The position numbers and the translations under genes are program-made. The notes beneath the pieces were generated by a model. The model was given only the letters and a program-made list of their open reading frames with translations, did not search any database and had not been told where the DNA came from. Of a DNA stretch of 64,000 bases, positions 2,894 through 56,643 are shown in pieces. Source of the stretch: Candidatus Methanosphaera massiliense (lineage in GTDB: Archaea; Methanobacteriota; Methanobacteria; Methanobacteriales; Methanobacteriaceae); contig NZ_JARBXM010000001.1 in NCBI RefSeq assembly GCF_028890305.1, forward strand, positions 1,344,501 to 1,408,500, written 5' to 3'. Numbering within the stretch: the first letter of the stretch is position 1; every line of letters starts with the position of its first letter.

Positions 2894-4034
2894 TTTTTAA
2901 TTTTGTTTCTTTTATTTGTAATTTCGTAGATCTACTATTGTTTATTCCATTAAATCTTCTTTTTTGAATACTATTCACACATTCTACTTGATTTCTGAAG
3001 TTATATACTGGTTTTAAGAAGATAGTTCTACATTTACTCCTATATTTTCCTGATTTTTGTCTAGTTTTCACAGGTATTTGTGGTAATGCTGTTGTTTCTT
3101 CTACTATTGTTTTTTTAATTATTTCTGAGTCATATGCTCTATCTGCTAATATATACCGTGGTTTGTACTTCTTTATTGCTCTAATTGCACTTATTGCAAA
3201 TACTGTATCGAATTTTGGTCCTTTTAAAGCATTGTAATGTCTTATTAACATATATTTTGAATCGATTGTGATATGGTTTTTTATGTATTGTCGTCTTGTT
3301 TTATTTGTTCTATTGTTGTAATAGATGTCTGAATAGGAATTAGTGTATCCTGTTCCATCTAAACTGAAATAACACTCTTTCACAGGGAAATATTGTAATA
3401 ATAGTCTGTTAATATTGTTTATTTGTTTTGTTTCTATTCTTTTGAAGAATTTCTGAATTGTTGTGTGATGTGGTATCGTTTTTAGTCTTAAAGCTTTCTG
3501 TAATTTAGTTGATACGTTTAGATTATCAATTGTTGTTCTGTAATCGTATTTATTGTATATTTTATAAGCTATTATTGCAAATAATTGTGGTTGTGTGTAT
3601 TTTTTCTTTGAATAGTGTGATGAATATTTGTTAAAAGTTAATTTAGCATAATTATATGCTGTTAATACGAAATCTAACATCATATTGTGTGTTAAATTTA
3701 TTTTTTCATTTTTGGATATTTCTGATAAATAATTATTATTTTGTCTTTGAATTCCAAAATCGAAAAGTTTAAGTTGTTTAGAATTCAAATACTTATTTGT
3801 AGAATAGATATTTTCGTTTAGCATATTTATATCTATTCTACTCTTTAAATAAATACTTATTCTTATTGTATTACTTTTAAACTTATTATTATTCTTTGAT
3901 TTTATAATTTAGATTAATTTCAAGTGTAATTTTTTTATTTAATTGTCTATTTTTTATTATAATTTAATTTTAAAAGATCTGGTAATGTTTTCATAAAGAT
4001 TTTTATTATAAAATTATAGGTTTTCTACAAAGCC
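2832..4034 (-). mobile_element. insertion sequence (IS4/IS5-like DDE) inside cas1
   Basis: The left end GGCTTTGTAGAAATCCTAT at 2832 and the right end, whose complement reads GGCTTTGTAGAAAACCTAT, at 4034 form 19-bp inverted repeats with one mismatch. The flanking octamer TAAATAAT occurs directly at both sides (2824-2831 and 4035-4042), a clear 8-bp target duplication. The element is 1203 bp with one intact transposase gene. Clean ends and an exact duplication suggest a fairly recent insertion. Assignment to a specific family is tentative; the 8-bp duplication would suit the ISH1-type part of the IS5 group. Confidence 0.95.
2847..3824 (-). CDS. DDE transposase of the cas1 insertion element
   Basis: A 325-residue transposase that looks intact. 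The catalytic acids can be placed: first Asp in FSLDGTGYTN, second in ILADRAYDSE, and Glu in the C-terminal stretch NQVECVNSIQKRRFNG. The YxxD-type second motif and the overall layout suit the IS4/IS5 superfamily (DDE_Tnp_1). It fills most of the 1203-bp element and is read in the same direction as the cas operon. Its last 47 bp overlap, in another frame, the ATG now used by the cas1 ORF, so translation of Cas1 may depend on transposase message. Confidence 0.88.
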   Translation of the reverse strand: MLNENIYSTNKYLNSKQLKLFDFGIQRQNNNYLSEISKNEKINLTHNMMLDFVLTAYNYAKLTFNKYSSHYSKKKYTQPQLFAIIAYKIYNKYDYRTTIDNLNVSTKLQKALRLKTIPHHTTIQKFFKRIETKQINNINRLLLQYFPVKECYFSLDGTGYTNSYSDIYYNNRTNKTRRQYIKNHITIDSKYMLIRHYNALKGPKFDTVFAISAIRAIKKYKPRYILADRAYDSEIIKKTIVEETTALPQIPVKTRQKSGKYRSKCRTIFLKPVYNFRNQVECVNSIQKRRFNGINNSRSTKLQIKETKLKNVFYNIYRSIQILQK

Positions 4035-4101
4035 TAAATAATAATGTATTATCTTTTCTTGATAAAATACCATTTGAATTAATATATAATGGTTCTTTAA
4101 T
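4035..4101 (-). pseudogene. cas1: displaced 5' end of cas1
   Basis: Translated on the minus strand from 4101 this gives IKEPLYINSNGILSRKDNTL, the missing Cas1 N-terminus, then runs into the IS. The first codon is ATT, five bases after GGTGA (4107-4111). No ATG, GTG or TTG is in frame, so an ATT start is inferred. Neighbouring cas genes show the same GGTGA-spacer-start pattern. Whether a short peptide is still made here is unknown. Confidence 0.85.
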
Positions 4102-4123
4102 AAAAATCACCTTCTGTATATGA

Positions 4124-4624
4124 TTAGATTTTACATAATTCAAAAAAAGAACATTTTCTACAATAAGAAGTATTAATTTCTTTTGGCGGTTTTTCTTGTT
4201 CTGCTATTTTACTAATATTACTAATTATTTCATTAAGTTCTTCTTCAATATCACTTGATAAGTATATAGATTCTCTCTTTTTTTCTTTAGGAAAAACTAA
4301 AACTCCCTTAGAATCTAATCCTACTTTTTTCAATGAATATAAATAATAATATAATTGATACTTGGAACTTTTAAGTAGTTTACTTGATTTTTTAACTTCA
4401 AAAATAGTTAATTTATTTTTATCTTCAATAAAATCAAAAACCATATTATCTATTTGAATTTCTTTATTTTTTCTTTTAAAACTATTTTTATGAATATCTT
4501 TTCCAATAGTAATATCATCATTATCATATGCCATATTAATATTATGAATATAAAACCATAATTTTCTCTTACATAAAATATAATAATGAACCATAACCCC
4601 AGAAACTTTAAAATTATCAACCAT
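4124..4624 (-). CDS. cas4: Cas4 exonuclease (Fe-S, PD-(D/E)XK)
   Basis: 166 residues from the ATG at 4624. The frame is open to 4684, but GGTGATTTA directly before 4624 and the family start argue for the shorter form. The first cysteine lies in YILCKRKLWFY and three more in the C-terminal CRKCSFFELC, the four ligands of the iron-sulfur cluster. The nuclease core is visible as FDFIEDKNKLTIFEVKKS (D...ExK). Cas4 trims prespacers and helps choose PAM and orientation with Cas1-Cas2. It starts five bases after the cas3 stop codon begins. It looks intact, unlike its partner cas1. Confidence 0.92.
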   Translation of the reverse strand: MVDNFKVSGVMVHYYILCKRKLWFYIHNINMAYDNDDITIGKDIHKNSFKRKNKEIQIDNMVFDFIEDKNKLTIFEVKKSSKLLKSSKYQLYYYLYSLKKVGLDSKGVLVFPKEKKRESIYLSSDIEEELNEIISNISKIAEQEKPPKEINTSYCRKCSFFELCKI

Positions 4625-4628
4625 TAAA

Positions 4629-7013
4629 TCACCATATGTTAGGATCTTGTTCTTTTTTAGGAATAAAACCAGTTTCTTCATCATATTTACGTGTTAATTC
4701 ATCTCTAGGAATATTTACAATTGTTTTTTCATTATCATGAAAATCAGCCCCTGTTTTATATTTTGGAATATGTATAATGTAACTATAGAAATCTGACCTT
4801 ATTTCCCTGAATTTCTGTCGAGATTCCATTTTATTAGAATTTTCACAAATTGAAATATAATCCGCCCATAGTCTTTCTGCAGATTTATCTTTTTCAATGA
4901 ATACATTCACGGGATTATCTAAGTTTTCAATTAATTTAAAATCATTGGGAATAGTTTCTAATTCAAGATTACTGATTTTTTCATTTAATTTATCTGATTG
5001 TTCCTGTGAAATTCTATCTTTGAGTATTTTATAGTATTCATTTGGAATTTTAAGATTAAATTCATTCTCTGAAGCTGTTATAATATCGTTATTAGTTGAA
5101 TCTAAATTATTTATTAATTCATCAGTAGCACTAATTAAAACACTATCATATATCATGTTATAAAAATATCTATTTTGGTCATCTTTCAGCTTTATTATAT
5201 GAACTTCTCCCTTTCCATTATTATTGTTCCTATTACATCTACCTGCGGTTTGAATAATACTATCTATAGGTGCAAAATCACGATATATAATATCAACATC
5301 TATATCCACACCAGCCTCAATTAATTGAGTTGTTACAATAATCTTTTGTTTATTACTCTTTTTTTCAATTTTATCAATCCTATCTCGTCTATCTTTTGGA
5401 ACAATATTAGTTGATAAATAAATTAATTCTTTATCACTGACATTAATATTATTAGATATATGATTATATAATATCCTGGAACAATGAATTGTATTAACCA
5501 CAAACATTATATCTTTATTTTTATTATTCTCTATAATATTACTAGCTTGTTGACAAAATTCTTTTAAATCTACTGGTTCTTTATGAAAATAATACTCAAT
5601 TCTATTAAATTTTTGGAAGTAAAATTGCTTATTTTCAATTATTTCATATATATGCTCTGGATTAAAAATAAGTGGTTGTGTAGCTGTCATAAGAATAATC
5701 CATACATGATAATTATACGCAATATCTTTAAGGATTGTTGCTATTATATTCCAGTATTTAATAGGAATAGATTGAACTTCATCTAAAATAACTATTGAAT
5801 CAATTAAATTATGAAATTTACGTAGAGATTTATTTTTATTAGAAATGATTGAATAAAAAAACTGTATAGAAGTAGTTATTACAATTTCTGAATACCATCC
5901 ATCTATTAATAATTCTGATGAATAACCAGTAATAGATTCATCTTCTGATGTATTATAAGTTGTGTCTGATAAAGAAGTCTGTACTAAAAGATAATCATTA
6001 CCTTTTATATTAGACTTTTCTAGAATATTATTTAGTACTGTTTCAGTTTGATCAATAATACTTAAAAATGGTAAAACATAAAGAATACGAGGTGTTATAT
6101 TTTTTTCTTTTTGTATTCTTTCTCGTAGTCTTAATGCAAAAGCAAATATATCCAAAGTTTTACCAATACCTGTAGGCAATGTCAATGAATAAAGTTTATT
6201 ATTTAAGTCCAACTTATCTACATAACACATTACTTCCTTATAAGCCTCTTCTCTAATTTTATTAATACCTTTAATTTCTCCAAATTTAGATTTTTTATAA
6301 TTTGAAATAATCTGAGAAGGTAATTTATCTTTCCGAGGTAGATTCTGAGTTTCCGAAGCATCAAACTTATCTGAATCTAATAATACTGAATAGAGCATTA
6401 TTATCTCTTCATAATTCATCATGCTTTCTTCCATAGAAAGTGTAAACAAATCGTCATTAATATTCTCTTTGATTAAGAAGTAGCTTTCTATAAAATCATT
6501 AATATCAATATTACATTCATCTTTATAAAATTTTCTTATTTCTAGATATTCATTAGTATTCTTATGTTTTTCTAAATCCTCAATTTGTTTTTCAGTATTA
6601 ATATCCTTATCTAAAGCTGTGATTTCACTAGGAGCTTCAATCAGATTTTTAAGGTTTCCATGATGATGATTAATCACTAAATAAGACATAATCGGGTAAT
6701 TTTCACAATTATAAGAAGTATTATCTAAAAGATTTTTAATAACATAATAACAAAAGAATGCGGATAAAAGACTATGATTTGCATAAGTAGATTTATAAGT
6801 TTCATCCTGCAAATGTTTTTGAAAGTAACTAGTTGCTTTACCAAAATCATGACAAATTCCAATTAAAAAAGAGAGTTGAGTATAGAATTCTTTATTATCT
6901 ATATCCGTTTGTTGAAATATTTCTTTAGATATTTCTCCAACTTTTTTTAAATGAGTTATTAGTTTTTTATCTTTATGAGAATAAAATGAATTTTTATCAG
7001 TATAACATGACAT
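4629..7013 (-). CDS. cas3: Cas3 HD nuclease-helicase
   Basis: 794 residues from the ATG at 7013, which has GGTGA five bases upstream; the GTG at 7022 overlaps that site and is less likely. The N-terminal HD domain shows GICHDFGK (about residues 53-60), ANHS and NHHHGN. The superfamily 2 helicase follows: PTGIGKT (about 280), DEVQSIP (about 411), MTATQP, TQLIEAGVDIDVD and QTAGRCNRN. Cas3 is recruited by Cascade to unwind and degrade the non-target strand. It overlaps the cas5 end by 17 bp. All motifs appear intact, so interference should be possible even though cas1 is damaged. Confidence 0.97.
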   Translation of the reverse strand: MSCYTDKNSFYSHKDKKLITHLKKVGEISKEIFQQTDIDNKEFYTQLSFLIGICHDFGKATSYFQKHLQDETYKSTYANHSLLSAFFCYYVIKNLLDNTSYNCENYPIMSYLVINHHHGNLKNLIEAPSEITALDKDINTEKQIEDLEKHKNTNEYLEIRKFYKDECNIDINDFIESYFLIKENINDDLFTLSMEESMMNYEEIIMLYSVLLDSDKFDASETQNLPRKDKLPSQIISNYKKSKFGEIKGINKIREEAYKEVMCYVDKLDLNNKLYSLTLPTGIGKTLDIFAFALRLRERIQKEKNITPRILYVLPFLSIIDQTETVLNNILEKSNIKGNDYLLVQTSLSDTTYNTSEDESITGYSSELLIDGWYSEIVITTSIQFFYSIISNKNKSLRKFHNLIDSIVILDEVQSIPIKYWNIIATILKDIAYNYHVWIILMTATQPLIFNPEHIYEIIENKQFYFQKFNRIEYYFHKEPVDLKEFCQQASNIIENNKNKDIMFVVNTIHCSRILYNHISNNINVSDKELIYLSTNIVPKDRRDRIDKIEKKSNKQKIIVTTQLIEAGVDIDVDIIYRDFAPIDSIIQTAGRCNRNNNNGKGEVHIIKLKDDQNRYFYNMIYDSVLISATDELINNLDSTNNDIITASENEFNLKIPNEYYKILKDRISQEQSDKLNEKISNLELETIPNDFKLIENLDNPVNVFIEKDKSAERLWADYISICENSNKMESRQKFREIRSDFYSYIIHIPKYKTGADFHDNEKTIVNIPRDELTRKYDEETGFIPKKEQDPNIW

Positions 7014-7692
7014 TATCTTCACCTATCCTATAATATTCACATTCTTTAAGTTTTATCGAATTAGCTAATTCTTCATAATAATATTCAATAAATTCAGTCA
7101 CTTCTCTATTATTATTAAAAAATCCGGGAGATTTTATAATTCCATATTTCTTATTTTTTTCAATGATTAATTGAGATTTATTTTTTAATACAACAGAATC
7201 AATATTTATATTTTTACCCTTCATTTTTTTTAAATCATGTAGACCATTACCAACAATGGAATAATTAGCTAAGCATTCCGTAACTCCCATATATACAGAA
7301 TATTTTGTTTTATGATTTTTAATTAAATAAAACAACTCATTCATCTGGTTTGTATTATCAAGATGAACATAAATTCTATATTTTGCATTTTTAATATATT
7401 CTATCGGTATTTGTGTTCTTGAACTACGTGGATCATTTCGTGTTTCAATATAATTTAAATTTAATCTTGTTCTTTTTATAGGGTTTAATATCTTTAATCC
7501 AATTTTACTATTGTTTTTTTGAAATAGTTTCTGATAACTATTACGTTCGAGACCAAGAATTCCTGCTATAATACCCGAAATAGTTGTACGACTTGGAAAA
7601 GGATATGAAAGAATAGAAGTTGTAGTATACCCTCTTCTAAAACAAGCTAAATCAGACCATATATCAAAAACTATTACTTTTTCATTATCCAT
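6997..7692 (-). CDS. cas5: Cascade subunit Cas5 (type I-B)
   Basis: 231 residues. The N-terminus VFDIWSDLACFRRGYTTTSILSY followed by PFPSRTTISGIIAGILG is the Cas5 RAMP strand with the aromatic/arginine hook that holds the crRNA 5' tag. The start at 7692 has AGAGGAAG upstream. It follows cas7 by nine bases and overlaps cas3. The family is Cas5h-like, consistent with Csh1/Csh2 partners. Confidence 0.93.
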   Translation of the reverse strand: MDNEKVIVFDIWSDLACFRRGYTTTSILSYPFPSRTTISGIIAGILGLERNSYQKLFQKNNSKIGLKILNPIKRTRLNLNYIETRNDPRSSRTQIPIEYIKNAKYRIYVHLDNTNQMNELFYLIKNHKTKYSVYMGVTECLANYSIVGNGLHDLKKMKGKNINIDSVVLKNKSQLIIEKNKKYGIIKSPGFFNNNREVTEFIEYYYEELANSIKLKECEYYRIGEDNVMLY

Positions 7693-7701
7693 TTTCTTCC
7701 T

Positions 7702-8601
7702 CTAAACTTTAATTTCTTCAATTTTTATACCTAATTCTTTAAGTTTAGGTAATAAATCGTCCTCAAATTTAAGATAATTATCAATTTTATAGTTTATTTG
7801 TTTTATTTTATTTTTATTTTTTTCAAGTACTTCTATTAATTCATGACAATCTAATTTTAATTGTTCTATCTTTCGTAATTCTTTATCTTCTTTAACTAGG
7901 TCATATTCATCATTTTCTTCAGTTTCATAATTTAATTTAACTCTATTGTCTAATTCACCTATAAAAAAGTAATCTTCTTTATATTCTATTTGTAGTAACA
8001 TTCTTGGAACTTGACCGAACTTTGATCGTGTTATTAAATTTTTTGTTCCATTCCACATTGCTTCTAATAATATTTTTATATCTTCTTCTGTCAACTTGGA
8101 TTCCTTTGCAGCAAGTTCATTAATAATTCCATAAAACCCTATTAATGAATAAGGTAATATATATTCTTCACGGAATGTTTTTTGACTTTCTTCACCAGTT
8201 GAAGCAAAACCACCTGTTCCTTTAATATGTTTAACTTCAACTTTATGTAATGATTTACCCATTTTAAACTGAACAGGACCCGTTAAAGTCATTTTTTTAG
8301 GTATTAATGCTCCAAATAATCTTAAATCAATACAGTCCTCTAATATTTGTTTTTCATCTTTAAAATCTTTAGCACGTTCTTCTGCTTTTTTTAACTTACC
8401 ATTTTTTTTAAGACTATCACGTACAAATATTTCTTTTCCTTTATAATTATAGATATAGTCTCTGATAGTTCTTTTAAGTCTTACATCTGTAACTAAATTA
8501 ATTCCAGTTTCATCGTCAATTCTTGGTTTGTTTTCATAGGCATCCCCATTAGGGTTACCATTACTTATATCATAATAAAATAATAATTCACTTCTATTCA
8601 T
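7702..8601 (-). CDS. cas7: Cascade backbone subunit Cas7 (Csh2-like)
   Basis: The sequence SELLFYYDISNGNPNGD followed by PRIDDETG and VTDVRLKRTIRDYI is the hallmark of Cas7/Csh2, the subunit that polymerises along the crRNA. The frame is open to 8628, but residues before MNRSEL are a lysine run and the family begins at that methionine, so I use the ATG at 8601 (299 residues). That ATG overlaps the cas8b stop by eight bases, which suggests coupled translation. The glycine-rich KGTGGFASTGEES may belong to the crRNA thumb region. Confidence 0.93.
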   Translation of the reverse strand: MNRSELLFYYDISNGNPNGDAYENKPRIDDETGINLVTDVRLKRTIRDYIYNYKGKEIFVRDSLKKNGKLKKAEERAKDFKDEKQILEDCIDLRLFGALIPKKMTLTGPVQFKMGKSLHKVEVKHIKGTGGFASTGEESQKTFREEYILPYSLIGFYGIINELAAKESKLTEEDIKILLEAMWNGTKNLITRSKFGQVPRMLLQIEYKEDYFFIGELDNRVKLNYETEENDEYDLVKEDKELRKIEQLKLDCHELIEVLEKNKNKIKQINYKIDNYLKFEDDLLPKLKELGIKIEEIKV

Positions 8602-10510
8602 CTTTCTCATCTTCTTCTTTTTTTTCATATTTATACATTGTAAATCCTAAAGTAAAATAATAACTAGTTTCATCACGAGTTAAATTCCAATTAGAATCTG
8701 TTTTTATCAATAATTCAGCAATACAACGTTCGATATCCTGTGTATACCAAATATTATAATCTTTAAGTTTACTAATTAGTGTAGGATATAAATTCTGTAA
8801 TTGTTTATGGTTTAATGAAAATCCTCTTAATTTATTTAAGAAAGAACTTGATTTATGGTCTTTATATTGTCTATTTATTACTATTCTAGATAATTCTCCC
8901 ATTAAGAAAGCAACTTTTTGATCCTCGTTTTTTAACATTTCTAATATATTATCATAATTATTATTCATGACTCTTCCACCTTTGAATAAATCTAAGTTAT
9001 CTAATAATATTATTAGTATTAGAGATTTAAATGTAGTGTATTTTAAGTTAAGCAATTGATTATATTGATTAGTATTAGTATTATTATTCTTTGTAGATTT
9101 CTTATACATTTGAGTTGTTATTTTTTTCATAAAAACAGATAATAGGAAATTGTAATCAATTTTTCTTCCGTTTAATATAGATGTAATTATCTCTATAAAT
9201 TCTTTATTTTCTGTTTTCTTATTTAACTTAGGCATATATTCACGAAGAAAACCAATATACCAATTGGAGCTAGTGTAATATTCATTATGATTAATCAAAT
9301 ATTCAATAAGATTTCCTTTAAAAGAATCTCCAAATGTCTTTTTCATATTATCTTCAGAAAATATTGTATATTTTCCTATATTTAGTTGTTCTTGGTATAT
9401 TTTATTAAGCCATGAAGGTAATAAACTATCTACAAAACCAATAATTTTTAATGAATCTTGATTTCTAAAAAAATATACAAATTCAAATTCTAAGTAATCA
9501 TTTAAACTGATAGCTTTTTTCATCAAATATTTTTCTAATGTTAATACTAATAATCCATAACTGTTTTTGTCATTTTTCTTAAAATATTTGTATACTTTTT
9601 TAAAACTTTCAATTGGATTTATTAGAAACTTAGGTATAACATAATAATTTAAACCAAACTCTCTAAATTCCAGGTATTCATTAATAAAGTTATTACCAAT
9701 AGTTATATAAGAGGCACAATCTTCACAAATAGGAATTTGTTTCCAATTTTCTTTAAGTGAAAAATTAGGCATATTACCTATTTTATCTACTGCACCATAT
9801 TTTAAATTAAGAGCAGGTAGAACATTCCCATAAATTTTTTTTTCTTCATTACATAATAGACAAGTTCCATGAGGAGATAAAATTTCCTTACCATGTGTTT
9901 TATAATAACTGTTTTTTATTTTCTCAAAGAATATATTTACAAAACATTCATAATCTATTAAATAGTTATCAGTAGAATTCTCTTCAATAATCATTGATAC
10001 TAAAACTTGGAATGGTCTATTAGTTTTTTCGTTTTTATTAATTTTTCCTTTCTCATTAAATATACCTGATTCAATAAGTTTTGATTCTAAATCACTTTCA
10101 ATTAAATGTTTATTTTTTTCTATTTCATCATGTAATAATGAGATTTTTGAATGCTTCTTATAATCTTGAAAAAACTTAATAAATTTACTTGAAAAGTTAT
10201 TATTTAACTTATTCTTATCATTTTCAGAGGTTATTCGAAATGTTGGAGAACCATTTAATGAATTTTTATACTCTTTATATAATAATTTATTAATATTTTT
10301 CAAAATAAACTCTGTAAGACGAACTTCTTTATATTTAAGTTTATTATTCGATTCCTTTTTAAAAATAATATAAATTACATGAGTATTATCTCTATTATTT
10401 TTATTAAATGATTGTATATTTACTTTATCTTCAAGATTTAACTTATCATAACTATTTTTACCATAATCTTCTACTGTAGCTTTACCAATATTATATAATG
10501 CATCTATCAA
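8594..10510 (-). CDS. cas8b: Cascade large subunit Cas8b (Csh1/TM1802 type)
   Basis: 638 residues beginning with a TTG codon at 10510, preceded by AGGTGA with five-base spacing. Two CxxC pairs, CLLC (about residue 217) and CEDC (about 262), make a treble-clef zinc site typical of TM1802/Csh1 large subunits, which recognise the PAM. Asn/Lys-rich and poorly conserved elsewhere, as usual for this family. It lies between cas6 and cas7, the standard I-B order. The identification rests on the zinc motifs, size and position. Confidence 0.88.
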   Translation of the reverse strand: MIDALYNIGKATVEDYGKNSYDKLNLEDKVNIQSFNKNNRDNTHVIYIIFKKESNNKLKYKEVRLTEFILKNINKLLYKEYKNSLNGSPTFRITSENDKNKLNNNFSSKFIKFFQDYKKHSKISLLHDEIEKNKHLIESDLESKLIESGIFNEKGKINKNEKTNRPFQVLVSMIIEENSTDNYLIDYECFVNIFFEKIKNSYYKTHGKEILSPHGTCLLCNEEKKIYGNVLPALNLKYGAVDKIGNMPNFSLKENWKQIPICEDCASYITIGNNFINEYLEFREFGLNYYVIPKFLINPIESFKKVYKYFKKNDKNSYGLLVLTLEKYLMKKAISLNDYLEFEFVYFFRNQDSLKIIGFVDSLLPSWLNKIYQEQLNIGKYTIFSEDNMKKTFGDSFKGNLIEYLINHNEYYTSSNWYIGFLREYMPKLNKKTENKEFIEIITSILNGRKIDYNFLLSVFMKKITTQMYKKSTKNNNTNTNQYNQLLNLKYTTFKSLILIILLDNLDLFKGGRVMNNNYDNILEMLKNEDQKVAFLMGELSRIVINRQYKDHKSSSFLNKLRGFSLNHKQLQNLYPTLISKLKDYNIWYTQDIERCIAELLIKTDSNWNLTRDETSYYFTLGFTMYKYEKKEEDEKDE

Positions 10511-10514
10511 AAAA

Positions 10515-11213
10515 TCACCTTTGATTGTTTATAAAGCCCATTCCTAATGAATTTTTCTCTCCATATCCACAATCGAATAAGAAGTTATAGAATTTTTTAT
10601 TTGATTTAAGAATATCTTTTTTAAATTCCCATAAACTCCCAATTACAATAAATGATTTATAATTTATTTTCATTCGTATTGAAACTTCTTTCTTAAATTT
10701 AAAAGTGTCAACAATATTTTCATCTAGTTGAATATCTTCATGATAATATGAGTTATATTTTTTAATGGCATTATCTTTTAATCTTTTGAAAAAGAAATCA
10801 AGATCATTATTTTTAAATGAGAAATACTTATTAGATTGATTATTTTCAAATAATACTATTGGTGTACCTGTGATTATATTAGATTTAACGTTCATATTAA
10901 TTGATTTTACTTGAATTAGTTTTAGGGTGTAATTATTTAATCGGATAGTATTCTGATTTTTAAGTTGGTTAGCTAATGTTTTTATTAATACTTTACTAGG
11001 TGAAGATATGATTAGCATTTTAGTTTCATTAGATTTAAAATCTGTTATTGGAAATATATTTGAATAATTAAAGAACTTGAATCCATGATTTTGGTGCCAA
11101 TAATCTAGTGAAGTATCTTTTAATAAAGAGTAAATAAATCCTTGTATATCATATTTACTAATAGCATAATAATCAAATTCCATTAATGGTTTGAATTTTA
11201 ATATTAATCTCAT
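10515..11213 (-). CDS. cas6: CRISPR pre-crRNA endonuclease Cas6
   Basis: 232 residues, first gene of the operon. The C-terminal GYGEKNSLGMGFI is the glycine-rich loop of Cas6 RAMP proteins, and the N-terminus shows the short LKFKPLMEFDYY strand followed by a helix. The expected role is cleaving pre-crRNA within the repeat to leave the 8-nt 5' tag. The ATG at 11213 has GGAGG at 11227-11231, a rather long spacing. The catalytic histidine cannot be placed with confidence. Confidence 0.9.
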   Translation of the reverse strand: MRLILKFKPLMEFDYYAISKYDIQGFIYSLLKDTSLDYWHQNHGFKFFNYSNIFPITDFKSNETKMLIISSPSKVLIKTLANQLKNQNTIRLNNYTLKLIQVKSINMNVKSNIITGTPIVLFENNQSNKYFSFKNNDLDFFFKRLKDNAIKKYNSYYHEDIQLDENIVDTFKFKKEVSIRMKINYKSFIVIGSLWEFKKDILKSNKKFYNFLFDCGYGEKNSLGMGFINNQR

Positions 11214-12748: not shown

Positions 12749-15717
12749 TTGAAGAAGGTTAATGTTGTGGCTGCTATTATTTTTAAGGATGAACGTATTT
12801 TTGCTACCCAGAGAGGTTATGGTGAGTTTAAGGATTTGTGGGAGTTTCCTGGTGGTAAGATTGAGTCTGGTGAGTCTCTGAGAAGGCTCTTGTGCGTGAA
12901 ATTAGGGAGAAGCTTGACGCTGATATTGAGATGTTGGATTTTGCTCTTGAGTTGGAGTGGCAATATCCTAATTTCTATCTAGTTAGTGTTGCTTTTATTA
13001 CTATGAGTGGCCTCACTCCCCTCTTACAGGATCTACTTGAACTTGAACATAGAGGTGTTAAGGGTAAGATTTTAACTACTGATTATCTTAACTTCATTGA
13101 ACCTGAGGCATTAGAGAAGTTATTAGAGTTTAGTAATATTGAGGTCAAGTTTTTTTACCAGGAAGAGGGCTTTCATACAAAAGGCTACTTCTTTAAATCA
13201 GGTGATGTTTATACTGGTATTATTGGTAGTTCTAATTTAACATTAAAGGCTTTGACTGTGAATAAGGAGTGGAATCTTGGCTTTTCATCATTGTATGATT
13301 GTGAACTTTTACAGGATATTCTAGGGCAATTCAAAGAAATTTGGGGTAAATCTAGTAATGTATCAGATATATTAGATGAATACAAGTCTACATATAATAG
13401 TAAGGATAGACCTCTTCAAGGTTCTATTGAAAATCGTGCTGTGACTAGTTTTAAACCTAATAGTATGCAGAGAGAATTCATATCAATTTTAATGAATTAT
13501 TAGATAAGGGAGAAAAAAGAGCATTATTAGTATCTGCTACTGGTACTGGTAAGACTTATGCATCAGCATTTGCTGTTAAGGCTGCCCATCCTAGGAAGTT
13601 TCTCTTCGTTGTCTACCGTGAACAAAAAGCAAAACAGGCAATTGAATCATATAAGCATGTATTTAAGGGTGAAGATGATAAGTTTGGATTATTAACTGGT
13701 AACAGTCATGATTATGATAAGGAGTACCTCTTTATTACTGTACAGACTATGAATAAGGACCATATTTATACTCGTTATTCTGGGGACGAGTTTGATTATA
13801 TTGATATTGATGAGGTGCATAAGGCTGGAGCAGATAGTTATCAGAAACTATTTGAATACTTCACACCTAAGTTCTATCTGGGAATGTCTGCTTCTCCTGA
13901 CCGTACTGATGATTTTAATATTTATGAATTATTTGATTATAATGTACCACTTGACATCAGATTAGAGGATACGTTAAAAGAGGACCTACTATGTCCATTC
14001 CAATACTTTGGAATAAGTGACCTGGAAATAAATGGTAAAGTACTAACTGATGAATCAGAGTTTAGATACTTAACATCAGATGCTCGTGTGGATTATATTC
14101 TTGAAAAATCAGACTTCTATGGATATAGTGGTAGTAGATGAAAGGCACTGGTATTTTGCAGTACCAAGAAAGAAGCACGTGAACTAGCAAAGAAATTCAA
14201 CAAAAAAAGACATCCAACAATAGCACTTACAGGTGAAGACAAACAAGAAGTAAGAGAGGATGCAATTGACAGACTAACAAATGATGAACGTGAAGACAGA
14301 CTTGAATACATTATAACTGTTGACAATGAAGGAGTAAATATACCGGAAGTAAACCAGGTACTACTAGTAAGGCCAACGCAATCATCAATTATATTCATAC
14401 AACAACTAGGTAGAGGATTACGTAAAACAAAGATAAAGAATACGTAGTAGTAATCGACTTCATAGGAAACTATAAAAACAACTTCCTAATACCACTAGCA
14501 TTATCTGGTGACACATCATATGACAAAGACTCAACAAGAAGATATCTCATGGAGGCAAACAAGCAGATAATTGGATCATCAACCATTAACTTTGATGAAA
14601 TATCCAGAAAAAGGATATATGAATCAATTAACAATGCAAGCTTCTCCAATATCAAATTATTCAAGGAAAAATACCAGAACCTAAAATACAAGCTTAACAG
14701 AATACCATACCTAGTAGACTTCTATAAAAACAAGGAACTAGACCCAATAATAATACTAAACCATGCCAAGTTTGACTGCTACCATGACTTCCTAATAGCC
14801 TACGACAATGAATACAAAGAAGTCATGATAAGAGATGAAACCAAATCACTGAAATTCATCACAGATAACTTTGCGGATGGAAAAAGACCGCATGAGCTAA
14901 TAATACTACAACTACTAAGAGATAATGAGTATTTTACAGTAAGACAAGTAGAAGAAAAATTACAGGAATATGGTATTACAGATGACTTTGAATCAATAAA
15001 ACACTGCTTTAAAATGTTTAATCAATCATTTCTAAAAAAGAATGACCAGAAAAAGTATGAAGGAGTAACATACTTTAACTGTACAGATAATATAGAGGAC
15101 ATACACGAACATGATTCAACACACTACAGCATCACAGATGAATTCAAAAGTTACCTTCAATCAAATACATACAAGAAGCACTTTGAAGACTTAATAGACT
15201 ATGCACTATAAGATATACTGACAAATACTGTCCTCAAACCGAGAATGTCAACCTGAAACTCTACGAGAAATATTCAAGAAAAGATGTATGTCGGCTACTA
15301 AACTGGCCTGGAAATGATAGTGCCACAATCTATGGCTATAGAATAAAATATAATACCCTACCAATGTTTGTAATATACAAAAAATAAGACAACATATCAG
15401 ACAGTACAAAATACCAGGATGAATTTATATCACGGGAAATATTCAGCTGGATGACAAGAAACAATGTGAAACTAGATAGTAAAGAACCACAGGAAATCAT
15501 TCACAACAAACAACTACAAAAAGGTCTATTTATAAAGAAAAGTGATGATGAATGAAGTGAATTCTATTACATGGGACAAGTGGATGTTATAGACTATAAA
15601 GAAACAAAAATAAAAAATGATGAAGAAAAGGAACTTCCTGTTGTAAACTTTAAATATAAATTACACTATCCAGTAAAAGAAGAATTATATAATTACCTAG
15701 TTAATGATATAGATTGA
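12749..15717 (+). pseudogene. Nudix/PLD/DEAD helicase/DUF3427 chimera, decayed
   Basis: Conceptual repair gives one long protein: a Nudix N-terminus (VVAAIIFKDERIFATQRG, WEFPGGKIESGES, ALVREIREKL), then a phospholipase D-like module (FHTKGYFF ... IIGSSNLT), a superfamily 2 helicase (SATGTGKT, DEVHKAG, MSASPDRT, QQLGRGLRK) and a DUF3427-type tail (KYSRKDVCRLLNWP ... FSWMTRN, FIKKSDDE, FYYMG). Lesions: one-base frameshifts near 12875, 13485, 14433 and 15211, and in-frame stops at 14139-14141, 15385-15387 and 15553-15555. The Nudix part stops around residue 80 and joins directly to VSVAFITMSGL, so the Nudix end and helicase start seem to have been deleted at about 12990. That suggests two neighbouring genes fused by deletion and then decayed. 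Confidence 0.88.
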
Positions 15718-29730: not shown

Positions 29731-30348
29731 TTATAGTACTAACCATTTTGTTATTATTTTTCCTTGATCTTTTGTTGTTTTATCTATCGCCACTAGTTTT
29801 ACTGTGACTTGCTGTGGTTCCATTGACGGTTCATAGTTTAATACTATTTCTTTATTTATGTCTGTCATTGTTGCTGTGATTATGATGTCGCCTTTTTCTA
29901 ATTTATTGTTTATGTAGTACTGTTTTTCTTGTTCCATGCCATCAGCTACTTGGGTGTAGCCTGTTATTGTGTATTCATCTTTTTGTTTGAAGAGTACTTC
30001 GTTTTCTATGATTTTTGCTGTTATTTCTTCTTGTATATCTGCATCATTTATTGTGTATTCCTGATTTGGTTGTTTATCATATTGTATTTCCAGGTATTGC
30101 GGTTTATCCAGTAATTCTTCTATTTCTATTATTTCATTATTTAATAGGTATATGCTTCCTGGTTTTGGATGTGTTCTGTTCTGATATTTTATGGTTTTAT
30201 TGTGAGCTTTGTGTTTTATTATTTGTCCTTCATTGTTTGTTTCTAGAAATTGATACATTATCAGGTTCTTGTATTTGTATTCTATTACTTGTCTGTATCC
30301 TTGTATGTCTTTGTAGTTTTTTGTCTCGTTTATGGTGTTACAGAACAT
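29731..30348 (-). CDS. unknown protein, paralogue of the next gene
   Basis: 205 residues, not recognised. It has no signal peptide or membrane helix and is rich in Lys, Glu, Asn and Gln. The second half aligns with the upstream gene: EYTITGYTQVADGMEQEKQYY, KLEKGDIIITATM, IVLNYEPS and VKLVAIDK ... KWLVL. The first half diverges. The pattern of short beta strands suggests a small all-beta fold repeated twice. It lies 27 bp after its paralogue, so the pair is probably one transcript. Confidence 0.75.
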   Translation of the reverse strand: MFCNTINETKNYKDIQGYRQVIEYKYKNLIMYQFLETNNEGQIIKHKAHNKTIKYQNRTHPKPGSIYLLNNEIIEIEELLDKPQYLEIQYDKQPNQEYTINDADIQEEITAKIIENEVLFKQKDEYTITGYTQVADGMEQEKQYYINNKLEKGDIIITATMTDINKEIVLNYEPSMEPQQVTVKLVAIDKTTKDQGKIITKWLVL

Positions 30349-30375
30349 TGACTTTTCATCTCCATTAGATGGTTG

Positions 30376-30996
30376 TTATAGTACTAGCCATTTGTTTATT
30401 ATGTTTCTTTTTTTCTCATCTTCGTCTGGCTTGTCTATGGCTACTAGTTTTACTTTTACTGTTTGTGAATTCAGGGATGGTTCATAGTTTAGCACTACTT
30501 CTTCATCAGCGTTATTTGATGTTGATGTGATTATGACATCCCCTTTTTCCAGTTTTTCTGTTGTATAATATTGTTCTTGTTTTTCTAGTCCGTCATCTAC
30601 TTGGTAGTATCCTTCTATGCAGTATTCATCGTATTCTTTGAATTCTACTTCATTGTCTGTTATTATGGATGTTACTGTAACTTCTTCTCCATTTACTATT
30701 CCTGTTATCTGATATTCCTTGTTTAATTCTCTGTCATATATTATGTCATTTTCCTCAGCTACTTCTAGTACATCCAGTATTACTTCACATCCTTCATCTC
30801 TGCAGATGTTACATCCTTCTGGTTTGTAGTAGTCATCATACATTGATGCATCCTGAAGGTCTCCTAATCCATCACCATATAAATCCACATATAGATTTGA
30901 CCCGTTTAATGAATATTTTATTGATTGCTTATAACATTCAACATCTTTTGCTCCTAGTACATCCCGTAATCGTTTACATTTCATGGGCTTCTTCAC
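30376..30996 (-). CDS. unknown protein, paralogue of the previous gene
   Basis: 206 residues, not recognised. It shares the C-terminal half of the previous entry (EYCIEGYYQVDDGLEKQEQYY, KLEKGDVIIT, VVLNYEPS, VKLVAIDK, KWLVL). Unlike its partner it is acidic, with DLYGDGLGDLQDASMYDDYY and a cysteine pair region CNICRDEGC that could bind metal. No signal peptide. The ATG at 30996 sits in AAACGTTTAC-rich context with GGAGTG upstream. It is probably an intracellular duplicated gene pair. Confidence 0.75.
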   Translation of the reverse strand: MKKPMKCKRLRDVLGAKDVECYKQSIKYSLNGSNLYVDLYGDGLGDLQDASMYDDYYKPEGCNICRDEGCEVILDVLEVAEENDIIYDRELNKEYQITGIVNGEEVTVTSIITDNEVEFKEYDEYCIEGYYQVDDGLEKQEQYYTTEKLEKGDVIITSTSNNADEEVVLNYEPSLNSQTVKVKLVAIDKPDEDEKKRNIINKWLVL

Positions 30997-31206
30997 TCCT
31001 TTTTGTTGTTTTTAGTTATTACTATTATATGTGTTTAGTATTTTATATTCATATCTCAACATCTGTATATGCCTTTGTATTCTTGTTACACTTTTTCCTA
31101 ATTTAATCGTTTATATTTTTATTTTATCCATTATATATTGATAAATTAACTATAAATACTAGTATTAAATATAGTTTTAATAAATTAATTTAAATAGGTG
31201 TTATAC

Positions 31207-32625
31207 ATGTATGAAAATAATATATGCTTATTAACCGATAGTTATAAGATAACTCACCATTATTTCTATCCAAAGAATACTGAACGTGTTTACTCCTACA
31301 TGGAAAGTAGGACAGGTTCTGAGTTTAATAAAACAATATTTTATGGATTACAATACATATTAAAGAAATACATGGAAGGCTGTGTTGTAACTAGAGAAAA
31401 AGTATTAGAGGCAGAGAAAGTTATCAACAAGCATATTGGTTCAGGTATATTTAATACTGATGGTTGGCTTTATATTGTTGATGAATTAGGTGGTAAACTA
31501 CCAGTTGAAATCAAGGCAGTAGCTGAGGGTACACCGGTAGATGTTGGTAATGTATTAATGACTGTGGAAAATACTGACAAAAAATGTTACTGGCTTACTA
31601 ATTACCTTGAATCATTATTATTACAGGTATGGTATCCATCTACTGTTGCAACATTATCTGCTGAGGTTAAAAAGGTCTGTAACTTCTATCTTGATGTAAC
31701 AGGTTCATGTAAGGATAATCTTCCATTCATGTTACATGACTTTGGTTATCGTGGATCTAGTTCTAATGAATCATCAATCCTCGGAGGTTCTGCTCATCTA
31801 TTAAGTTTCAGTGGTACAGATACCCTAACAGCACTTACTATACCATGTAACTACTATAACGATGATAATATGTATGGCTATTCTGTACAGGCTACCGAGC
31901 ATAGTGTGATGACATCTATGGGTAAAGAAGGAGAAATAAAACAGGCAATAAATGTTGTAGAACAGGCTCGTGATGGTGTATTATCAATGGTTATTGATAG
32001 TTATAATTATCGTAACTTCTTATTAAATGCATGTAGTAAGGGTTACAAGTTATATGAAACAATATGTAACTTCCTCAATCGTACAGAGGGTAATAAAGTT
32101 GTATTCCGTCCTGATAGTGGTGAACCAGTAAGTACTACCATTGATTGTTTAGAGATAATTGGTGAGGGATTTGGTACATATCTAAATGATAAAGGTTACA
32201 AGGTGTTTGATGCTAATGTTGGATTATTATGGGGTGATGGATTAGATTATCATCGTATTCGTGATATTCTCTTTGGTATGAAATCCTCTGGATGGGCTGC
32301 TGAGAACATTATCTTTGGTATGGGTGGTGGTATTCATACTAATGTTAACCGTGACACTCAACGTAACGCTTTCAAGTGTTCAGCTCAATTACGTGATGGT
32401 AAATGGTATGATATATATAAAAAACCATTAGATAGTAGTAAGAAATCTAAATCGGGTCGTTTTAAGTTAATTATGAATAATGGTAGATATCATACTGTTA
32501 AAATTAGTGATGATGGTGAGGATTGTCTTAGACCAGTATTTCGTGATGGTGAAATTCTTGTAGAGGATTCATTTGGTGATATCAGACGTAGAGCTGAATG
32601 TTACATTAATCATCCCTTAAGTTAA
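31207..32625 (+). CDS. nadV: nicotinamide phosphoribosyltransferase
   Basis: 472 residues from the ATG at 31207, which has AGGTG six bases upstream; the GTG at 31198 overlaps that site. The protein makes NMN from nicotinamide and PRPP in NAD salvage. Family landmarks are DSYKITHHYFYPKNTERVYSY, HDFGYRGSSSNESS, PDSGEPVSTT and GGGIHTNVNRDTQRNAFKCS. The length suits the NAMPT/NadV group rather than nicotinate phosphoribosyltransferase. It stands alone, and a bacterial origin is possible because the family is patchy in archaea. TATAAATA near 31151 is a likely promoter element. Confidence 0.9.
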   Translation: MYENNICLLTDSYKITHHYFYPKNTERVYSYMESRTGSEFNKTIFYGLQYILKKYMEGCVVTREKVLEAEKVINKHIGSGIFNTDGWLYIVDELGGKLPVEIKAVAEGTPVDVGNVLMTVENTDKKCYWLTNYLESLLLQVWYPSTVATLSAEVKKVCNFYLDVTGSCKDNLPFMLHDFGYRGSSSNESSILGGSAHLLSFSGTDTLTALTIPCNYYNDDNMYGYSVQATEHSVMTSMGKEGEIKQAINVVEQARDGVLSMVIDSYNYRNFLLNACSKGYKLYETICNFLNRTEGNKVVFRPDSGEPVSTTIDCLEIIGEGFGTYLNDKGYKVFDANVGLLWGDGLDYHRIRDILFGMKSSGWAAENIIFGMGGGIHTNVNRDTQRNAFKCSAQLRDGKWYDIYKKPLDSSKKSKSGRFKLIMNNGRYHTVKISDDGEDCLRPVFRDGEILVEDSFGDIRRRAECYINHPLS

Positions 32626-32654: not shown

Positions 32655-32720
32655 TAATGTACATAATATACATTAGATACATATTATACTTAATGTAGTT
32701 TAAGTACATAAATATTTATA
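32655..32720 (+). promoter_or_regulatory. promoter and two palindromes before the AbrB-TIR operon
   Basis: TAATGTA (32655-32661) and TACATTA (32669-32675) form one perfect inverted repeat. TACTTAA (32687-32693) and TTAAGTA (32700-32706) form a second. A TATA-like AATATTTATA ends at 32720, about 24 bp before the ATG at 32744, so the message may be leaderless. The palindromes could be where the AbrB-fold protein represses its own operon. Confidence 0.55.
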
Positions 32721-32743
32721 GTAACAACAATAAACTAGAGAGT

Positions 32744-32935
32744 ATGAAAAATTACACGGTTAAAGCTAGGGCTAGAAAAGGAACTAACTCTATAGATCTT
32801 ACATTACCCGCAGATATACGTAAAGAATACTCTATCAGTCAAGGAGATATCTTTAAAATAGATACAGTAATAGAAAAGGATACTTTGAAGCTAGAATACA
32901 CGTTAATTTATCAGAATAAAATAGACAAGGAATAA
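32744..32935 (+). CDS. AbrB/SpoVT-fold DNA-binding protein
   Basis: 63 residues. The stretch VKARARKGTNSIDLTLPADIRKEYSISQGDIFKI is the swapped-hairpin AbrB pattern: basic first strand, LPxxIR turn, then xxGDxFxI. Such proteins bind DNA as dimers and are often antitoxins or autorepressors. Its stop is four bases before the TIR-like gene, with which it forms an operon. A distant paralogue lies at 63759. The role as antitoxin or regulator of the TIR protein is inferred from arrangement alone. Confidence 0.8.
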   Translation: MKNYTVKARARKGTNSIDLTLPADIRKEYSISQGDIFKIDTVIEKDTLKLEYTLIYQNKIDKE

Positions 32936-32939
32936 AGAA

Positions 32940-33413
32940 ATGAGTAATGAACCAAAGATTAATATATTCATCTGCTACAACCACATTGATGAATACTTTA
33001 AAAATAAATTAAATGAAATCATAGGCGATAAATTCACAATAAATTCATCACCACAAAGATATGATATAAAAAATGATTTTAACAAATATGTAGAGGAATT
33101 AAACAAGGAAAATACAGGAGACCGTAATATATTCATAGTATTAATGGGACCAGACACATATAAAAGTAAAAATGTAAACTGGGAGATAGACTACGCCCTA
33201 CATCATGATGCATGCATGCTAGGATTATGCCTACCTACAAACGATGACTACCTAAAAAGGAATATTAACACAAGTAAAATGCCAAGACAATTTGTTAACA
33301 ACCTACTAGCAGGATACATATCATACTTTGACTGGACAGATGAATACGATAATCTCGCTAATTATATAAAATTCTCATGTAACCGTAAAAATCACTGCCA
33401 CGCATTAATATAA
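32940..33413 (+). CDS. TIR-like protein, MTH538/ThsB type
   Basis: 157 residues. IFICYNHIDEYFKNKLNEI at the N-terminus and NIFIVLMGPDTYKSKNVNWEIDYAL in the middle match the MTH538 TIR-like family (DUF1863), which includes the Thoeris sensor ThsB. The glutamate in NWEIDYAL is at the place of the TIR catalytic acid. LGLCLPTNDDY completes the Rossmann-like core. AAGGA lies eight bases before the ATG. No ThsA-like effector is in the window, so a Thoeris system is not shown. It may act as an NAD-using enzyme, controlled by or paired with the AbrB protein. Confidence 0.8.
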   Translation: MSNEPKINIFICYNHIDEYFKNKLNEIIGDKFTINSSPQRYDIKNDFNKYVEELNKENTGDRNIFIVLMGPDTYKSKNVNWEIDYALHHDACMLGLCLPTNDDYLKRNINTSKMPRQFVNNLLAGYISYFDWTDEYDNLANYIKFSCNRKNHCHALI

Positions 33414-55065: not shown

Positions 55066-56643
55066 TTAATTTTTAAGAGTTCTGTAGAAATCATGTATGA
55101 TACTATTAACTAATTCAAGATTAAGAGTACTGTCTAGCCATTCACGTGGAATAGAATCTAATCCATAATATAATGCTGCAAGACTACCAGTTATTATACC
55201 ATTAGTATCAGTATCTCCACCAAGATTAACAGCCTTTAAAACTGCATCCTTATAGTTGTCAGTATTATAACAACAATATAAGGCTACTTCAAGTGAATCA
55301 ACAACATATCCAGTACTTGAGACTACTGTATCTTTATTATCTAGGAAATTTTTACTGTATAACTTACTAAAGCAAGGATATTTATCTTCAATGTCATAGT
55401 ATTTTCGTGATTCATTTAAACCTCTTTTTATTAGAGTTTTAAAGTTCTTAGTATATCTGTCATGTAATATTTCCTGGACTATAAAGTTATAAATATTACA
55501 TGATGCCTTACTTATACTATGAGCATGTGTTAGTGAGGAGATGTCATCTATTAGTTTTATTGATTCATCCACTGGTATATTATTTGTGTAAATATACAGA
55601 AGTATAGGCATGATTCTCATTAATGATCCATTACCGTTATTACGTTTTCCATCTCCACCACATTCTATTGGCTCAATTCCCTTACTGTAGTTTTCTATAG
55701 CATATTTCGTTGTTCTTCCAACATCAAATGTTTCACCAAGTGGCGTGTAATCACCATTATAGTACCATTTCTGGAAGTTATTCATAATATCATCATAATC
55801 TACTCCTTTTTTTAAACTGTCCAGTAATGCTATTGTAAGAGAACTATCATCAGACCATGTTCCTACAGGCATGTTATATGTACCGTGACCCGTCATACCA
55901 GTAGCCGGGTTATCTAACATTTCTTCATGTGACTTAAACTCGTATGGCACTCCAAGTGCATCAGCTACTACTCCACCATATATTGCAGCTTTTATGTCTG
56001 TTATTGTTAATCTATGACTATCTTTTACTAATCTTCTGAAGTTTGCTGATGATTCACGCGGATTATCATGTTTCATTATAGCAGATACTATTGCTACTCC
56101 GTCAAATCCATATTCATTTATTACTTGTGGCGTGTTGTATTCCTTTACTCCGCCAATTGCTACTCTTGGTATTGTGATGTTTTCATCAACTTTTTTAAGG
56201 TCTTCCTTGCTAATTACACTACAGTCCTCTTTTGTTGAGGTAGCTTGTATTGCTCCTATTCCCAGATAATCTGCTCCATCTTTTTCTGCTTGAAGGGCAT
56301 CTTCATAGTTTTCTGCACTTATACCGATTATTTTATCTGGTCCTAGTATTTGTCGTGCTATTTTGCATGGCATGTCATCCTGTCCGAGGTGTACACCGCT
56401 ACTGTCAACAGCTTGTGCCACATCAATTCTATCATTAATAATTAATGGTACATTGTATTTATCAGTTATTTGTTTAACCTTCACAGCTAAATTATAGAAT
56501 TCTCTTGTTGTACTATTTTTTTCTCTTAGTTGAACTATACTGGTTCCACCAATTATAGCTTTTTCTATTATGTCAAGAAATTCCTGTTCTGTGAAGTCGA
56601 ACTGATCTGTTACCAGATATACACTATAATCAATATTCATCAT
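55066..56643 (-). CDS. thiE: ThiE fused to ADP-ribosylglycohydrolase
   Basis: 525 residues. Residues 1-207 are thiamine phosphate synthase: SIVQLREKN, LIINDRIDVA, GVHLGQDDMP, ATSTKED and AIGGV. The TIM barrel joins thiazole phosphate and HMP-PP to thiamine phosphate. Residues 213-525 are an ADP-ribosylglycohydrolase (DraG/ARH fold): YGGVVADALGVPYEF, WSDDSSLTIAL, NGSLMRIMP, LTHAHSIS and GGDTDTNGIITGSLAALYYG, with the metal-binding Asp pairs present. I know no established role for this second domain in thiamine synthesis. It follows thiM by eight bases. No stop separates the domains, so it is a real fusion. Confidence 0.92.
   Translation of the reverse strand: MMNIDYSVYLVTDQFDFTEQEFLDIIEKAIIGGTSIVQLREKNSTTREFYNLAVKVKQITDKYNVPLIINDRIDVAQAVDSSGVHLGQDDMPCKIARQILGPDKIIGISAENYEDALQAEKDGADYLGIGAIQATSTKEDCSVISKEDLKKVDENITIPRVAIGGVKEYNTPQVINEYGFDGVAIVSAIMKHDNPRESSANFRRLVKDSHRLTITDIKAAIYGGVVADALGVPYEFKSHEEMLDNPATGMTGHGTYNMPVGTWSDDSSLTIALLDSLKKGVDYDDIMNNFQKWYYNGDYTPLGETFDVGRTTKYAIENYSKGIEPIECGGDGKRNNGNGSLMRIMPILLYIYTNNIPVDESIKLIDDISSLTHAHSISKASCNIYNFIVQEILHDRYTKNFKTLIKRGLNESRKYYDIEDKYPCFSKLYSKNFLDNKDTVVSSTGYVVDSLEVALYCCYNTDNYKDAVLKAVNLGGDTDTNGIITGSLAALYYGLDSIPREWLDSTLNLELVNSIIHDFYRTLKN

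Follow-up and report, generated by a model that had tools for sequence, protein, structure and literature searches.

Anatomy of the AbrB–TIR locus

Within a 64,000-nucleotide stretch of the Candidatus Methanosphaera massiliense genome (contig NZ_JARBXM010000001.1, positions 1,344,501 to 1,408,500), referred to here as the window, we analysed a gene pair in which a small AbrB-fold protein is followed by a TIR-domain protein of the ThsB family. A sequence-only reading of this DNA had pointed to open reading frames (ORFs) for a 63-residue AbrB and a ThsB-type TIR separated by four bases, and both are present at these positions, arranged as a two-gene operon with the DNA-binding gene first. In the window the pair is flanked by a NAMPT gene and a glycosyltransferase gene (Pfam). 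The features of the locus, in window coordinates, are:

31198-32625, + strand: NAMPT/NAPRTase gene, a neighbour only and probably outside the unit
32657-32709: candidate operator, with one perfect ATGTACAT and six 5-bp units at 9-bp steps
32710-32720, + strand: TATA-box-like AAATATTTATA directly after the last operator unit; a near-leaderless start would be expected
32744-32935, + strand: AbrB-fold regulator of 63 amino acids, proposed autorepressor and controller (ORF, Pfam and PDB profile matches)
32940-33413, + strand: ThsB-family TIR protein of 157 amino acids with likely catalytic Glu82 (Pfam ThsB_TIR)

The two perfect palindromes previously described upstream of the pair reduced to one perfect ATGTACAT (32657-32664), accompanied by longer inverted repeats that are all imperfect. 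The clearer structure is a 9-bp register. Six 5-bp units (TACAT, TACAT, TACAT, TACTT, TAGTT and TACAT) start at 32660, 32669, 32678, 32687, 32696 and 32705, stepping by exactly 9 bp from 32660 to 32709; the first lies inside the perfect ATGTACAT, and the last directly abuts the TATA-like AAATATTTATA. None of 2000 dinucleotide shuffles reached the window's count of four in-register TACAT units, and the full 64 kb contains ATGTACAT at two places. The TATA box of the earlier reading was recovered as AAATATTTATA, 24-34 bases before the AbrB ATG, while the near-leaderless message proposed with it is plausible only. Because the array of sites ends at the TATA box, as an autorepressor would need, AbrB probably represses its own promoter. 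A 9-bp register is unusual in being shorter than a helical turn, so that neighbouring sites rotate steadily around the DNA, and such rotating sites predict a wrapped or helical AbrB filament.

We also scanned the window's genome for a wider AbrB regulon, taking as the pattern three TACAT units spaced by 9 bp and allowing a single mismatch. The pattern occurred at nine places, and the eight whose surroundings were read gave no clear second operator: two are the window operator, four lie inside ORFs of at least 100 amino acids, one in a 77-amino-acid ferredoxin-like ORF and one outside ORFs of 100 amino acids. A reversed-pattern control was uninformative, as TACAT reads the same backwards. A wider regulon was therefore rejected.

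The AbrB protein matched Pfam MazE_antitoxin with an E-value of 1.4e-4 and 22.2 bits, 2.5 bits short of the 24.7-bit cut-off. A profile of its family matched solved AbrB-family regulators, best 5itm (E 3.8e-7), with 2l66 and 5itj, all at about 4e-7. Its predicted secondary structure runs strand-strand-helix-strand-strand, and the last predicted strand stops at residue 56 of the 63, leaving about seven C-terminal residues beyond it. The protein is thus predicted to be little more than a DNA-binding fold.

The TIR protein matched Pfam ThsB_TIR (PF08937) above the cut-off (E 2.1e-12), and its structural matches include ThsB 6lhy and EcThsB 8wcf; a phmmer search with the single window TIR returned no solved chain at E<=1. 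Glu82 sits in a WEI-type motif, aligns with the EcThsB Glu in a weak match (E 0.28), and is kept in 10 of the 11 TIR copies that we found in the genus, with Asp in that at locus L035. Position 10, in the first strand, is Phe in 7/11 and Tyr in 4/11. In the published sections available, staphylococcal ThsB2 has a Phe opposite its putative catalytic Glu (PMC12578639), and that of EcThsB2, from TM-macro Thoeris, is close to a Tyr (PMC11204291); position 10 putatively maps onto this Phe/Tyr residue. Judged by family, fold and conserved residues, the TIR is a conserved ThsB relative and a predicted NAD-processing enzyme. A PDB profile match of the TIR alignment to a clostridial toxin chain (E 0.0036, one short stretch) was judged to be chance. 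A further ThsB_TIR match, weak at 21.7 bits, is encoded elsewhere in the window's genome (contig C1, ~768 kb) at 6074-6487 of locus L039. It has no AbrB of this kind close by and may be the genome's true MTH538-type protein.

Conservation of the pair and its operator

The sequence-only reading had staked its proposal on conservation of the pairing in related genomes, and the pairing proved to be conserved. Among 20 Methanosphaera genomes, some of them incomplete, AbrB and TIR are both present in 11 and both missing in the other 9, so that all 20 are concordant. A search of 60 related genomes recovered close TIR homologues from the window's genome and from half (9) of the 18 others in the genus (10 loci, 50-61% identity), G003 holding two of these loci; no TIR homologue was found in the 41 non-genus genomes. 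All ten close homologues have an AbrB directly upstream (69-86% identity over the aligned part). One of these genomes also encodes a distant TIR (33%), which has no AbrB directly upstream. A pattern scan of genome contigs with two short peptide patterns, which cannot show absence elsewhere, gave eight loci: one of the window's own species (RUG12825), six in Methanosphaera records, two of them M. stadtmanae, and one in Methanobacteriaceae.

Pairwise AbrB and TIR distances correlate across the 11 + 11 proteins (r 0.81; none of 5000 permutations as high). Ratios of nonsynonymous to synonymous substitution rates (dN/dS) were 0.07-0.18 for four AbrB pairs and 0.04-0.06 for three TIR pairs, of which one approached saturation; the remaining pairs were either saturated or too closely related to use. 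The gap between the genes is 1-4 bases in 6 of the 11 copies and 23-32 bases in four, and in the remaining copy the genes overlap if the first ATG is used.

Within the genus the pair occurs in three gene contexts: near an ArsC-family gene at nine loci, up to ~1.6 kb away (assigned by tblastn for six loci and by likeness or Pfam for three), next to NAMPT in the species of the window, and, in G003, adjoining a VapBC-like pair (PIN domain E 2.5e-16). No constant third gene accompanies it. As the neighbours change across the three contexts, the unit kept together is, from these comparisons, the operator, AbrB and TIR. We considered as a third component the gene downstream of the pair on the ArsC side (L034:5987-6511), which is found at six of the nine ArsC loci, and rejected it. 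This gene occurs in 14/20 genus genomes (E<=1e-5), three of which (G002, G004 and G010) lack the pair, and its homologue in the window's genome is located elsewhere. It has no Pfam match and marginal PADLOC matches, the best to MkoB (E 4.4e-4 over 66 residues).

The candidate operator is conserved along with the pair. Sites in a common 9-bp register lie upstream of all 11 AbrB–TIR copies, although the register statistic is weak for L032; at L028, TACAT occurs at -102, -93, -84, -75, -66, -57 and -39 relative to the AbrB ATG. By eye, A+T-rich stretches resembling the window's TATA region follow the array in the homologous loci. Pooling these with regions upstream of related AbrB genes from the loci without the TIR described below gave 23 regions of 115 bp each, the related copies among them being non-independent. 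Every region has at least one ATGTACAT before AbrB, and 21 have two or more near-perfect sites, L073 and L181 having one each. Counting sites that differ from ATGTACAT at no more than one base, we found every one of the 48 spacings to be a multiple of 9 bp. The AbrB start codon assumed for L180 and L181 is out of frame, which affects offsets and leaves spacings unaffected. In 18 of 20 upstream regions, no more than 5 of 2000 dinucleotide shuffles attained the in-register count; the exceptions are L032 (97/2000) and L073 (891/2000, a single unit).

Pattern-based scans built from the alignments revealed no viral contig with AbrB or TIR relatives, and no phage record held a relative of the L066 AbrB, the L180 AbrB or the window TIR. 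Eight plasmid records carry a TIR relative. Of these we viewed three (Aliarcobacter 34%, Aureispira 32%, Acinetobacter 24%), in which no AbrB-named neighbour was seen and other TIR genes lie close to the TIR relative.

Relatives of the two proteins in other settings

A profile of the 11 AbrB proteins matched 19 of 151 genomes of the phylum, namely the 11 Methanosphaera and 8 from two other genera of the family. A second AbrB profile, run on 395 relatives, matched 21 genomes and added G293, a strong, distant match (E 2.6e-20); two further genomes, G290 and G306, gave weak, partial matches. We inspected twelve AbrB loci that lack the TIR: L066-L073 from the two other genera, L074 (a second AbrB of G018), L179 (from G293), and L180 and L181, which are haloarchaeal plasmids found by tblastn. 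At 11 of the 12, one of the 11 haloarchaeal, the AbrB lies beside restriction-modification or Vsr genes; the twelfth, a Halopiger AbrB, does not.

The enzymes at these loci are diverse. An MvaI/BcnI-type endonuclease adjoins AbrB at L066, L068 and L074 (Pfam) and at L067 and L070 (likeness); a C5 methyltransferase is present too wherever the sequence extends far enough. Vsr is the neighbour at L069 and L071 (Pfam) and L072 (likeness); C5 methyltransferases accompany it in L069 and L072, and none was recognised in L071. L073 combines a ResIII helicase carrying a weak Mrr domain with an N6/N4 methyltransferase, L179 a BstXI-type endonuclease with an N6/N4 methyltransferase, and L180, by its record annotation, a SacI-family endonuclease with dcm. 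A PHROGs search with six proteins near these restriction-modification copies gave one match, to a pseudomurein endopeptidase family, and a prophage setting was not established.

The same operator recurs here. L066-L072 and L074 carry ATGTACAT at -54/-53 and -27/-26 with an extra TACAT 9 bp after the first, and L179 has the same -53/-44/-26 geometry with at most one mismatch. ATGTACATAATGTACA lies upstream of the Haladaptatus AbrB, and when that region was shuffled base by base, 1 of 20000 shuffles contained two ATGTACA. In L066, L067, L068, L070, L074 and L179 the sites lie between AbrB and a divergent endonuclease gene. An operator shared with a restriction gene holds for those relatives; the window has no restriction gene there. 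Since the sites are conserved beside AbrB proteins that are only 41-49% identical, there is good evidence for ATGTACAT/TACAT as the predicted binding sites of this AbrB subfamily.

One regulator and one operator type thus accompany unrelated enzymes, and for this reason control probably acts through DNA and not through partner binding. In our reading the AbrB controls defence genes at the level of transcription, as the C proteins of restriction-modification systems do, rather than serving as an antitoxin. That the AbrB half is a dedicated autoregulator, from a subfamily tied to restriction systems, is well supported by these comparisons.

We then turn to the TIR. ThsB_TIR matches occur in 68 of the 395 related genomes. 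Twenty-two other ThsB loci, those returned for the best matches rather than every ThsB_TIR match, were scanned by profile, mostly over 1.5 kb on each side, and none has an AbrB of this subfamily, while the positive controls L034 and L124 were found. PDC-M50A, the membrane protein of the PADLOC system PDC-M50, lies beside the ThsB TIR in L101 and L104, and by eye another membrane protein type does so in L107 (the same as L100), L110 and L113 (the same as L099). In L099 (4176-7335) and L100 (4175-5334) a ThsB-like TIR is followed by the membrane protein, of 215 amino acids in L100 and split over two ORFs in L099, which also shows two further TIR-like proteins by eye. The L110 membrane protein, similar to the L099/L100 type, had no PADLOC match. 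At L112 (886-2405) four ORFs stand in a row: an AbrB-like one of another type (by eye), a coiled-coil-like one, a ThsB TIR and a membrane protein. This AbrB-like ORF has no Pfam match at 0.1; L112 is possibly a second AbrB–TIR arrangement.

The absence of ThsA noted before was upheld at the locus, where PADLOC, Pfam and inspection of the flanks revealed none. The PADLOC search covered 10 flanking proteins of the window and four homologous loci, with the remaining flanks inspected by eye, and the same search gave no PDC-M50A partner. Across the 20 genus genomes, no ThsA of the STALD type (PF18185) was found, a weak negative, as the control matched nowhere and SIR2-only and TM-macro ThsA were not searched. 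Relatives of the L100 membrane protein were likewise found in 0/20, with no positive control and PDC-M50A itself not searched there. Like Thoeris ThsB, the TIR has the ThsB_TIR domain, a ThsB-like fold and a likely catalytic Glu in a WEI-type motif; unlike it, it has an AbrB regulator in place of ThsA and no constant third gene. By gene content this is not a standard Thoeris locus. The TIR also weakly matches PDC-M50B (E 4.9e-5), the ThsB-like half of PDC-M50, but the pair has AbrB where that system has its membrane protein.

Proposed mechanism and alternatives

From the observed anatomy, conservation, operator regularity and genomic association, we propose that the pair is a two-gene defence operon under its own dedicated AbrB controller, with the TIR as a ThsB-type NAD-processing enzyme (probability about 58%). 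Predicted binding, repression, NAD chemistry and defence would combine as follows. An AbrB dimer would bind the 9-bp-phased ATGTACAT/TACAT array abutting the TATA box and coat it cooperatively. The coated array would block TBP/TFB and keep the AbrB mRNA and the downstream TIR low. AbrB could be released through dilution, degradation or titration, in infection or on entry to a new cell; alternatively, infection may activate the TIR directly. In either case the TIR would consume NAD+ or convert it into a signal, and stop viral growth. AbrB would then be an interchangeable expression controller for dangerous enzymes, comparable to a C protein.

A broader version of this proposal, to which we give even odds, is that archaea have a transferable AbrB-type defence controller of about 60 residues, which polymerises on a 9-bp-phased ATGTACAT operator and governs defence enzymes that are unrelated to one another, namely Vsr, restriction enzymes of four kinds and the stand-alone Methanosphaera TIR. 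TIR immunity in Methanosphaera would then be controlled at transcription, like restriction, and not via a ThsA partner. C-protein systems likewise have a small DNA-binding protein with a probable operator between it and a dangerous enzyme (here seen for relatives of MvaI/BcnI and BstXI). C proteins are, however, helix-turn-helix proteins, whereas the controller here has the AbrB fold and a 9-bp-phased operator, and in Methanosphaera precedes a TIR. If the proposal is true, archaea possess an equivalent of the C proteins, which set the timing of restriction systems, but one without the helix-turn-helix fold; one shared regulator type links TIR immunity with restriction, and the pair makes TIR defence without ThsA testable in a small system.

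We favour the TIR as its own effector, an unlinked effector remaining the alternative. In such Thoeris-like signalling the TIR would make a cyclic ADP-ribose-type or related nucleotide, an unlinked effector would respond, and AbrB would only set the TIR level. The membrane proteins beside several other archaeal ThsB TIRs (PDC-M50A in L101 and L104, the other type in L107, L110 and L113) fit this picture, as do ThsB proteins described, in the part of PMC11204291 available, as sensors generating signalling nucleotides. The missing constant third gene speaks against it, as does the lack of ThsA and PDC-M50A among the 10 flanking proteins and of STALD/ThsA or the L100-type membrane protein in the 20 genus genomes, both genome-wide searches being uncalibrated. 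We consider it a possible explanation, though clearly a less probable one than control of a self-sufficient TIR.

The sequence-only reading had offered a compact autorepressed unit serving either TIR defence or as a toxin-antitoxin system. Compactness and conservation stand and autorepression is probable, but the toxin-antitoxin half fared less well. There, AbrB would neutralise the TIR by direct contact and autoregulate, as MazE does for MazF. AbrB-type antitoxins are common, according to the portion of PMC2701414 available, and the pair shares with MazE/VapB-type antitoxins the AbrB fold, the small first gene and probable autorepression. Its positive evidence is gene order and spacing, with a small DNA-binding gene first, the enzyme second, 1-4 bases between them in 6/11 copies and an operator at the promoter. 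Against this, AbrB has almost no C-terminal tail past its fold for binding a toxin, its subfamily accompanies unrelated MvaI/BcnI, BstXI, SacI, Vsr and ResIII/Mrr proteins, and the pair mostly stays in place under strong purifying selection. We regard this explanation as unlikely.

A metabolic role is, in our view, similarly improbable. The TIR would be a TIR-fold nucleotide glycosidase in NAD or nucleotide salvage, co-regulated by AbrB, the adjacent NAMPT/NAPRTase-type gene (NCBIfam PRK09198, E 3.4e-174) being the hint; this gene, absent from the sequence-only reading, lies on the same strand and ends 118 bases before the AbrB ATG. NAMPT is patchy in the genus (8/20 genomes), however, 4 of those 8 genomes lack the pair, and the two are adjacent only in the window's species (2 genomes), so we rejected NAMPT-TIR co-function as the logic of the unit, and from this distribution NAMPT looks incidental. 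The link of the controller subfamily to restriction-modification also argues against a metabolic role. Chance neighbours or annotation noise, for which small gene size and nothing else speaks, are refuted for practical purposes by the 20/20 concordant genomes, operator conservation and purifying selection.

The pair had not been recognised as described, and in the literature we searched, which excluded most subscription papers, no paper combined AbrB, TIR domain and Thoeris; several mention both AbrB and TIR. Novelty is not thereby proven. In the accessible parts of the papers returned, Thoeris and AbrB are co-mentioned in an unrelated genome paper (PMC11326445), AbrB appears in the reference list only of a paper on restriction-modification with a controller protein (PMC8053105), and the AbrB partners shown are toxins such as PIN, MazF, Fic and RelE (PMC2701414). 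The corresponding parts of two others describe AbrB as a jumbo-phage transcription factor, with TIR elsewhere in the text (PMC7824862), and tabulate an AbrB-family arCOG among Methanobrevibacter differences, with nothing there on an AbrB–TIR pair (PMC11366006); the part of PMC12259885 available also holds nothing on such a pair.

Other genes in the window were recorded as side observations. On the minus strand, 1919-11213 carries Cas1, Cas4, Cas3, Cas5, Cas7, TM1802 (Cas8-like) and Cas6 genes about 20 kb from the pair, which we read from gene content as a type I-B-like CRISPR-Cas locus. Three separate short ORFs at 12892-15211 (+) match PLD-like/NgoFVII, ResIII and DUF3427 domains and look like one helicase-nuclease gene in pieces. 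Adjacent ORFs of 205 and 206 amino acids at 29731-30996 (-) are seemingly related and match no Pfam family at cut-off. Finally, thiamine-phosphate synthase and ADP-ribosylglycohydrolase domains are fused in a single ORF at 55069-56643 (-).
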